From a virus, in the IMG/VR virus record IMGVR_UViG_3300037189_003735, positions 1-26,226 of that record: DNA of 26,226 bases. One strand, given 5' to 3'. Below, in pieces: positions 2,785 to 11,363 of the stretch (positions are counted from its first letter, which is position 1; each line of letters starts with the position of its first letter). The position numbers were made by a program, and so were the translations under genes. The notes below the pieces were generated by a model that did no database searches, was not told the origin of the DNA, and was given only the letters and a program-made list of their open reading frames with translations.

Positions 2785-3060
2785 TTACTTCTTTGACTTG
2801 TTTACTTTAACCGTGTGATCACTATTGCGGGTGAACGAACGATTATTTTTTGGTGCTTTCAATTTTAAATTACTTGGTGCATTTGTCCCGCCTTTAGAGA
2901 GAGGAATCACATGATCGATGTCTTTACCAATTCTGTCAATGCCTTTTTTATCGACTGCGTATCGTGCTCTTGCACGAGCATTTCGATTGGGTTGTTCGCC
3001 ACGTTCTTGTTGTTGTTTGTATTCCTTTTCGTAAGGACGTTTTTTATTGACGTATGGCAT
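2785..3060 (-). CDS. HNH endonuclease-like protein (91 aa)
   Basis: This small basic protein has an HNH core in its second half: IDHVIPLSKGGTN (Asp48 and His50 at the first position, Asn60) followed by SNL and KNNRSF. The last canonical His is replaced by Asn, a common HNN variant. The N-terminal 40 residues are Arg/Lys/Gln-rich and probably bind DNA. AGGAG lies 4 bases before the ATG. It is the first gene of the unit containing the primase-helicase and follows the structured intergenic region. It could be a free-standing homing-type nuclease or a DNA-processing nuclease. No terminase or intron context is seen here to decide. Confidence 0.82.
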   Translation of the reverse strand: MPYVNKKRPYEKEYKQQQERGEQPNRNARARARYAVDKKGIDRIGKDIDHVIPLSKGGTNAPSNLKLKAPKNNRSFTRNSDHTVKVNKSKK

Positions 3061-3548
3061 AAGACTCCTGAATAGAAAAAACCGCTTTAGACTTTACTAA
3101 AGATACGTTAACACTTACTGATGTATTCGTAAGTATTACTAAGACTGCCCTTGGAGAGGGCAGACTCGCCTATAAACAAGCTTTAGCGAGTCTTCCTTTA
3201 CATACTCTGCCCCACGGTGTCGGTATGACTCGACAGACTTTTCATGCGAGGGACTCTGTCTTCGCCATCCCTTTCCGATTTCAAACGCACTAACCATAGT
3301 ATCGGCAATAAACTTTTCTGACCCTACCGTTTTTCATCGACGATCAGAAAGACTATGTTAAATCAAAAAAATAAAAACGCAAGTCAGGGTTACTACTCAC
3401 GAACGTAATGCGTACGAAAAAATAGGTACGCTCGTCGCAGCGTACTGCTTGTTTAAACAAATATTATTGACCCGGCTGCGGCGTGAGCTGCCAAAAAAAA
3501 AGAGAGTGCGTTTAAACACTCTCTAAAACCACAGAAGGAACTTCCATT
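3061..3548. other. Noncoding, hairpin-rich region (candidate structured RNA, regulatory leader or origin)
   Basis: No gene fits in these 488 bases. Inverted repeats are unusually dense. They are 3145-3151/3157-3163 (7 bp), 3162-3169/3186-3193 (8 bp), 3158-3164/3206-3212 (7 bp), 3187-3192/3227-3232 (6 bp), 3232-3237/3255-3260 (6 bp), 3291-3300/3352-3360 (9 bp with one bulged C) enclosing 3315-3321/3344-3350 (7 bp), 3426-3432/3439-3445 (7 bp), and the terminator at 3493-3524. Several are mutually exclusive. Two GTTTAAAC copies lie at 3451 and 3510. Read on the minus strand it would be a leader for the HNH and primase genes. On the plus strand it would precede the 22-codon ORF. I see no convincing promoter and recognise no known RNA class. 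Confidence 0.55.
3493..3524 (-). terminator. Rho-independent terminator for the minus-strand rusA transcript
   Basis: The stem AGAGAGTG (3501-3508) pairs with CACTCTCT (3517-3524) around an 8-base loop that contains most of a GTTTAAAC site. Eight A on the plus strand at 3493-3500 give a U-tract for minus-strand transcripts. It separates rusA from the HNH/primase unit downstream. Confidence 0.75.
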
Positions 3549-3617
3549 ATGGAACAAAACGTTCAGCTTGACAAACCTTTTTTTTATGTCTACTATTTAA
3601 GCGTTGATAGGAAATGA
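3549..3617 (+). CDS. Candidate 22-residue small protein or leader peptide
   Basis: An ATG at 3549, with AGAAGGAA ending 8 bases upstream, opens 22 codons and closes with TGA at 3615-3617. The peptide is charged at both ends with an aromatic centre (FFYVYYL) of only about seven residues. That is short for a membrane helix. A plus-strand terminator follows 29 bases later. The whole ORF lies antisense to the untranslated 3' part of the rusA transcript. The ribosome-binding site and dedicated terminator argue for translation, but 22 codons can arise by chance and no family is recognised. Confidence 0.4.
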   Translation: MEQNVQLDKPFFYVYYLSVDRK

Positions 3618-3646
3618 GCCTCCGATCGATAAGACCAGTAGGTCGG

Positions 3647-3674
3647 AAAGCCACCGTAAAACGTGGCTTTTTTT
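3647..3674 (+). terminator. Rho-independent terminator downstream of the 22-codon ORF
   Basis: AAAGCCAC (3647-3654) pairs with GTGGCTTT (3663-3670) around an 8-base loop, and T runs through 3674. The T-tract overlaps the rusA stop codon on the other strand. On the minus strand only three T follow the stem, so the plus orientation is favoured. Because no annotated large plus-strand gene precedes it, it implies an independent short plus-strand transcript. Confidence 0.75.
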
Positions 3675-4032
3675 ATTGTCTTTCCTGAATTTCAATCTCG
3701 CACCGTGGATTAGCCTTATCCACACCCATCCAATAGATATGCTTTTCTTTAACCTGACGGTCGTTCTCGTAAGCTACGTCCTGTAATAGATCCAAGATCA
3801 AGCTTTCATCCAAGTCAGGTCTGCGGGATGCATACCATATACGAATCGTTACCACCACATCCGTTGTAATTATTTGACTCGGAGCTGAGACTACTTGCTG
3901 TTTAAACGCTTTGGCATAGGCTAATGCCTTCTCTGACTTTATAAACATTGGCTTGCCTGAGATGTAAACCATTTTGCGGGAATTTGCTTTACTGGCTGGC
4001 TCGCCAAATATTTTTAAGGATAGTGTTTGCAT
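3673..4032 (-). CDS. rusA: RusA-family Holliday junction resolvase
   Basis: This is a 119-residue protein, the usual RusA size. It has the N-terminal GEPASKANSRK segment (residues 10-20) and the catalytic core RRPDLDE...ENDRQV. Asp73, Asp75 and Asp91 match the three metal-binding aspartates of Escherichia coli RusA. The family cuts four-way junctions symmetrically as a dimer, so it would resolve recombination and replication intermediates before packaging. It is transcribed divergently from the exonuclease-ERF operon across a 45-base gap. It starts at an ATG preceded by AT-rich sequence without a clear Shine-Dalgarno. One GTTTAAAC copy (3900-3907) lies in the coding sequence as Phe-Lys codons. 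Confidence 0.92.
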   Translation of the reverse strand: MQTLSLKIFGEPASKANSRKMVYISGKPMFIKSEKALAYAKAFKQQVVSAPSQIITTDVVVTIRIWYASRRPDLDESLILDLLQDVAYENDRQVKEKHIYWMGVDKANPRCEIEIQERQ

Positions 4033-11044: not shown

Positions 11045-11363
11045 CAATCAGGTGTGCCCTACGTCTAAACGTAGCGTCATGCTTTGTCCATGCGTCAGTT
11101 ACTGTTCCCGCACGACTCATGTGAATAATCTCATGAGCCACGGTTCTAATGACCGTATCAAGATGTCCACATTTTGCTTTTGAAATAGTCAGGGTATGTA
11201 CGTAGTCTTCATCATCGTCATACTGATACGTACCCATCGCATCAATTTCATTGGTAACAAGAAACTTAATTTCTTCTGGGGCGGGTAGAGTCCAGCCTGT
11301 AAAAGGCTTGCATTGGCATAACATTAAGTAAATGCCCTCAAGGGCTTTTGGCGTTAACTTCAT
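11010..11363 (-). CDS. SprT-like zinc metallopeptidase-type protein (117 aa)
   Basis: Residues 73-82 read RTVAHEIIHM, an HExxH zincin site (His77, Glu78, His81), with a further conserved-type His95 in AWTKHDATFRRRA. Size and pattern match SprT-like domains, related to the DNA-protein crosslink protease Spartan and to small phage metalloproteins. A Cys pair near CQCKP and one at CGH may help fold. It may cut proteins on DNA or another target; that is family-based inference. It overlaps the metallophosphoesterase stop as ATGA, so the two are coupled on the minus strand. The C-terminus overlaps the converging plus-strand gene. Confidence 0.78.
   Translation of the reverse strand: MKLTPKALEGIYLMLCQCKPFTGWTLPAPEEIKFLVTNEIDAMGTYQYDDDEDYVHTLTISKAKCGHLDTVIRTVAHEIIHMSRAGTVTDAWTKHDATFRRRAHLIATELGFDPLEL

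Follow-up and report, generated by a model that had tools for sequence, protein, structure and literature searches.

What does the noncoding DNA just upstream of the HNH and primase-helicase genes of this virus encode? The window that we analysed is the whole stretch of 26,226 bases taken from one virus record, and an earlier note, made from the sequence alone, had singled out nested hairpins at positions 3121-3360 as a candidate structured RNA or replication origin. We found that the minus strand of this region encodes a member of the Rfam family RF02932. The RNA is carried by a phage and is located just upstream of the co-directional HNH and primase-helicase genes; its core contains several pseudoknots, and its 3' domain lies outside the Rfam model. 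These results partly confirm the original observation and partly support its interpretation.

Family membership and the folded core

RF02932 (Betaproteobacteria-1 RNA) was the sole Rfam family that cmscan found in the window. It matched positions 3351-3228 on the minus strand, which is the relevant strand for the RNA, with a score of 68 bits (E 9e-11), about 19 bits above the gathering cut-off of 49.4 bits. The match was full length (model positions 1-120 of 120), and we take it as the core of the RNA. We regard membership of RF02932 as practically certain. The earlier note had recognized no known class and had itself named a match to one as grounds for dropping its reading; RF02932 is such a match. 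Rfam lists the family as an sRNA gene, and our search of the literature on the family found no function for it. ARAGORN found no tRNA or tmRNA genes in the window.

The Rfam model, as printed, contains only the nested helices P1, P2 and P4, and each of them showed compensatory changes among relatives. P1 is a hairpin (3349-3342 with 3323-3316) in which all eight pairs were compensatory and 97.2% of cells were paired. It contains the 7-bp inner helix (TTTCTGA/TCAGAAA) that had been described from the sequence. P2 (3305-3301 with 3279-3275) had compensatory changes in 4/4 counted pairs, with 88.7% paired, and P4 (3260-3255 with 3237-3232) in three of its six pairs, with 99.0% paired. On its 5' side, P4 is preceded by the segment GGCGAAG, which is strongly conserved and nearly invariant.

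Three of the six helices, P1.1, P3 and P5, are pseudoknots outside Rfam's model. In P1.1, the P1 loop (3327-3324) pairs with 3299-3296; all four pairs were compensatory and 95.5% of cells were paired. P3 (3272-3268 with 3253-3249) crosses P4, and four of its five pairs were compensatory, with 93.2% paired. P5 (3290-3286 with 3248-3244) crosses both P2 and P4 and was compensatory in 5/5 pairs; 96.5% of cells were paired in the close set, and the figure for the wide set, which was aligned without fitting to P5, was 74.4%. The support for P1.1, P3 and P5 is not circular, because the wide alignment was made with a model that lacks these helices. We consider it very probable that the pseudoknots are real.

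Taken over all helices, 28 of the 32 pairs were compensatory in the wide set of 100 diverse relatives (830 cells, compared with 245 after shuffling). The covariation score was 0.693, compared with 0.201 for shuffled alignments and at most 0.122 when the strands were slid. In the close set of 26 relatives, compensatory changes were seen in 25/30 pairs, and none of 500 shuffles scored as high. Unbiased mutual information recovered the same helices, including P1.1. For P3, it showed that columns 132-145 covary and that the next pair switches between U-G and C-A. Thus, the comparison among relatives that the earlier note proposed gives strong support to a structured RNA. Single-sequence folding energy was dropped as evidence, as it was not significant on either strand: the fold of the region was no better than chance, with z scores of -0.34 (plus) and -0.97 (minus), and 64/200 (plus) and 35/200 (minus) shuffles folded equally well. 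The support for the RNA structure is comparative, not energetic.

The 3' domain, the probable promoter and the upstream neighbourhood

The RNA runs about 85 nt past the end of the Rfam model, and both conservation and covariation persist there in relatives. We therefore propose, from conservation and covariation in relatives, a whole RNA of about 210 nt (3353-3139, minus strand) that joins the core to a conserved 3' domain and has its proposed 3' end at 3139. Within this 3' part are the covarying helix P6, two more hairpins and a locus-specific pair of direct repeats of 6-9 nt. P6, which is beyond the Rfam model, pairs CATAC (3227-3223) with GTATG (3205-3201); over 67 distinct strand pairs, a mean of 4.40 of its 5 pairs could form, compared with 2.52 (sd 0.12) after shuffling. 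P7 is a hairpin of GACTCGC (3192-3186) with GCGAGTC (3169-3163) that was identified in the sequence and has an equivalent in relatives. The order within the domain is P6, P7 and then CACC or a similar anchor. The further stem-loops that had been noticed within 3121-3290 are indeed present, and most of them belong to this RNA or its 3' extension. Judged by its relatives, the RNA is larger and more intricately knotted than is catalogued in Rfam, and the added architecture may be new.

The direct repeats of the window are R1 (GGGGCAG, 3213-3207) and R2 (AGGGCAG, 3151-3145). In relatives, one repeat site comes after an anchor, often GGCUCC, that lies in the P6 loop, and the other comes after a second anchor. 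The 6-9 nt repeat varies between loci and agrees within each locus: the longest common substring averaged 6.35 within a locus and 4.65 across loci, a difference reached by none of 300 permutations. We assigned the anchors by pattern; a few of the assignments are wrong, an error that weakens this signal and does not create it. No complementary partner for R1 or R2, within the RNA or in the 3 kb around it, was clearly above control.

On the 5' side of the RNA, a probable promoter consists of TTGCGT (3382-3377), a 16-nt spacer and TAACAT (3360-3355), with a start expected near 3349. Most relatives that share this gene order have a TTGC...TAAnaT pattern at an equal distance. A consensus scan missed the promoter of the window, whose -35 box is weak. 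The promoter also bears on the 70-nt element of the earlier note, within which the first helix of the RNA (P1) does lie. Its 9-bp, one-bulge outer helix (TAACCATAGT/ACTATGTTA) is present in the sequence, but it is accidental: it is outside the conserved structure and overlaps the probable -10 box. Further upstream, the RusA transcript probably ends at a strong terminator on the minus strand (3524-3501), and the RNA therefore probably needs its own promoter. Of expression as a separate small RNA, the Rfam type, the sequence shows the promoter pattern only.

Several other features were seen in this neighbourhood. On the plus strand, 3568-3677 holds a TTGACA-N17-TACTAT promoter, followed about 50 nt further on by a hairpin and a T-run; this is a candidate for a short RNA of about 70 nt that would point into the RusA gene. 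The commonest 8-mer in the window is GTTTAAAC, with 21 copies where 11 are expected from its 7-mers. Copies lie at 3451, 3510 and 3900 and at 18 other places, and in 32/41 related loci the motif was found upstream of the RNA at a distance of at most 350 nt. The sequence GGUGGCGAAG seems to resemble a stretch of 16S rRNA, but a 10-mer in common is about what chance would give, and the resemblance was set aside.

About 20 relatives have an intrinsic terminator directly upstream of the RNA, which its T-run precedes by 11-28 nt. The terminator loop pairs back to the transcript start and so forms a pseudoknot. Over 30 terminator leaders, including nine from relatives without RF02932, the mean complement was 7.8 nt, compared with 5.26 nt (maximum 6.0) for shuffled sequences. 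The layout of this terminator is conserved and its sequence is not. A promoter-like site followed by the pseudoknotted terminator was seen 10-130 nt upstream of the RNA in L161, L162, L188, L195, L200, L204, L206, L217, L226, L233 and others. The nine scanned loci gave no confident Rfam match for the terminator, and a sub-threshold anti-hemB match adjoins it in one locus. The pseudoknotted terminator would thus be a further RNA element absent from Rfam. About 1.2 kb upstream of the RNA in L195 (1444-1501), there is also a near-threshold match to the type II hammerhead ribozyme (34.4 bits, cut-off 37).

The same kind of terminator occurs in phages that have a similar primase-helicase and lack RF02932; there it is followed by other apparently structured, unclassified sequence upstream of the HNH gene. 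This sequence lies 300-700 nt upstream of the primase-helicase in L040, L041, L044, L045, L050, L051, L060, L062, L073 and L078. Two of these loci, L060 and L062, carry GGCUCC/CACC repeat motifs that resemble the RF02932 3' domain. No Rfam match was found in seven loci without RF02932.

Distribution and gene neighbourhoods

RF02932 scored above the cut-off in 29/50 related phage records, and the model that we built here (model R1) gave strong scores in 51/82 loci; these and all other counts of distribution ignore relatedness. When only loci that extend at least 700 nt upstream of the primase-helicase are counted, the RNA was present in 50 of 72 phages with a related primase-helicase, and it was present in all 32 relatives whose primase-helicase is at least 74% identical. 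A short RNA pattern picked out 36 loci in genomes and, in viruses, at least 79 more. All of the 76 searched viral loci that were picked up by this pattern carry the RNA with strong scores, as do 18 genome loci, in records that are named as betaproteobacterial. By nucleotide search, the window matched no cultured phage. The relatives matched only Acidovorax phage AP1, which has one unannotated copy of the RNA after its primase gene, plus 39 nt of an uncultured phage record. The strong genome matches are betaproteobacterial, and Acidovorax phage AP1 adds to them.

In bacteria, RF02932 was above the cut-off in 5/399 sampled genomes of the host order, and in a class sample of 369 genomes the RNA was found in the centre genome only. 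The RNA is an accessory element that is mostly borne by phages and is rare in bacteria. Several chromosomal copies have neighbours that, read by eye, are unlike phage genes, and a plasmid search with two chromosomal copies gave no match. The chromosomal copies L130, L131, L142 and L147 have a further block in common (GGGGGAGGCTC ... GGGGGCAAAGCCCC), which follows the RNA by about 150-250 nt; in L131, a gene that by eye resembles one for a plasmid replicase lies about 1 kb downstream. In the Paraburkholderia genome of L126 (G052), there are four RF02932 matches, of which one is below the cut-off and two lie within 5 kb.

In the window, the HNH gene (2785-3060) and the primase-helicase gene (1086-2768) are both on the minus strand, and the RNA is positioned upstream of them, as had been described. 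The nearest conserved downstream gene was co-directional with the RNA in 77/77 loci, and the nearest conserved upstream gene in 76/85. Sets of neighbours differ among the relatives, with some of the gene names assigned by eye or from weak matches: HNH plus primase-helicase, ParB-like/helicase/Toprim, RecT-like, NinB and 2OG oxygenase. Only in the primase-helicase group was the HNH gene found next to the RNA. In one group, the RNA lies 6-20 nt after the primase gene, not before it. In most loci, no terminator of its own was found downstream of the RNA. The RNA recurs beside replication or recombination genes of many Betaproteobacteria phages.

A model for the RNA, its alternatives and known systems

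We have proposed a model for what this RNA might do. The RNA would be made early. It would have a sigma-70-type promoter of its own or, in those relatives in which a primase gene directly precedes it, would be part of an early transcript. The folded RNA of about 210 nt would then work in trans by binding a factor that is conserved in Betaproteobacteria. The GGCGAAG segment would be presented to this factor, held in the P3, P4 and P5 pseudoknots, and the RNA would help the phage to gain control of the host as replication begins. The strong conservation of unpaired residues and the restricted host range of the RNA both fit binding to a conserved host factor. Action in trans is the least certain step, and we put it forward tentatively, as slightly short of an even chance. 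The model as a whole, which is built from sequence comparison, seems to us about equally likely to be right or wrong. The rarity of the RNA in host genomes and its unrelated phage DNA-metabolism neighbours count in favour of the model, and the relatives that have the same primase-helicase without the RNA, some of them with another apparently structured RNA in its place, count against it.

The RNA could instead be a cis-acting leader or an intercistronic part of an early messenger that controls the replication genes that follow, for instance as an autoregulator that binds a protein or as an antitermination signal of the put kind. We consider this possible but on the doubtful side. The invariable co-direction of the conserved downstream genes and the lack of a terminator after the RNA in most loci count against the model of trans action in that they also fit such a leader, as do the roughly 20 relatives in which the RNA directly follows a promoter and the pseudoknotted terminator and precedes the early operon. 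Co-direction is, however, expected for any early phage gene; the downstream genes and their distances vary, no conserved terminator or element that sequesters a ribosome site was seen after the RNA, and the group with the RNA 6-20 nt after the primase gene does not suit a leader. An origin role, which was raised in the earlier note and which we take to mean that the RNA or a single-stranded DNA fold would serve the adjacent primase-helicase as a primer or landing site, appears improbable and gained no specific support. In two layouts that are unrelated to each other, a primase or primase-helicase gene does adjoin the element, and the cumulative GC-skew minimum (3862) is about 500 nt away. But this minimum, like the maximum at 11056, falls where the coding strand switches, and the skew is uninformative on an origin because it follows gene orientation. 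In addition, recombination genes are the conserved neighbours at other loci, and the switch between U-G and C-A points to a fold of RNA.

The locus-specific repeats would suit a guide-like or recognition RNA, in which a constant pseudoknotted scaffold displays two copies (R1 and R2) of a 6-9 nt motif that varies between loci, and each phage's RNA recognizes its own DNA, RNA or protein target, with production gated in many phages by the pseudoknotted intrinsic terminator. We think that this reading, too, is unlikely to be correct. Functionless chance hairpins in intergenic DNA would agree with the non-significant folding energy, but they are refuted by the Rfam match and by the massive covariation, and we give them almost no credence.

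Once RF02932 is placed in phage replication and recombination regions, within Betaproteobacteria only and together with the pseudoknots, the longer 3' domain and the variable repeats, this orphan Rfam entry becomes a testable question, namely what the phage gains from the RNA and which host factor the RNA meets. The RNA of the window shares with RF02932 a full-length match, the helices P1, P2 and P4 and a betaproteobacterial host group; the window RNA and its relatives add to that model three pseudoknot helices, a conserved 3' domain of about 85 nt and the locus-specific repeats. The put antitermination RNA of HK022 and the CI RNA of phage P4 are structured RNAs in early phage leaders. The likeness to them is that of a structured RNA in an early leader; we saw none in sequence or structure, and the RF02932 core is larger and pseudoknotted; as for put-like antitermination, only the position of the RNA in an early transcript fits. 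HEARO, or IscB omega RNA, is a structured RNA that adjoins an HNH gene. It has no Rfam match in the window, and the HNH protein here is a phage HNH of 91 amino acids.
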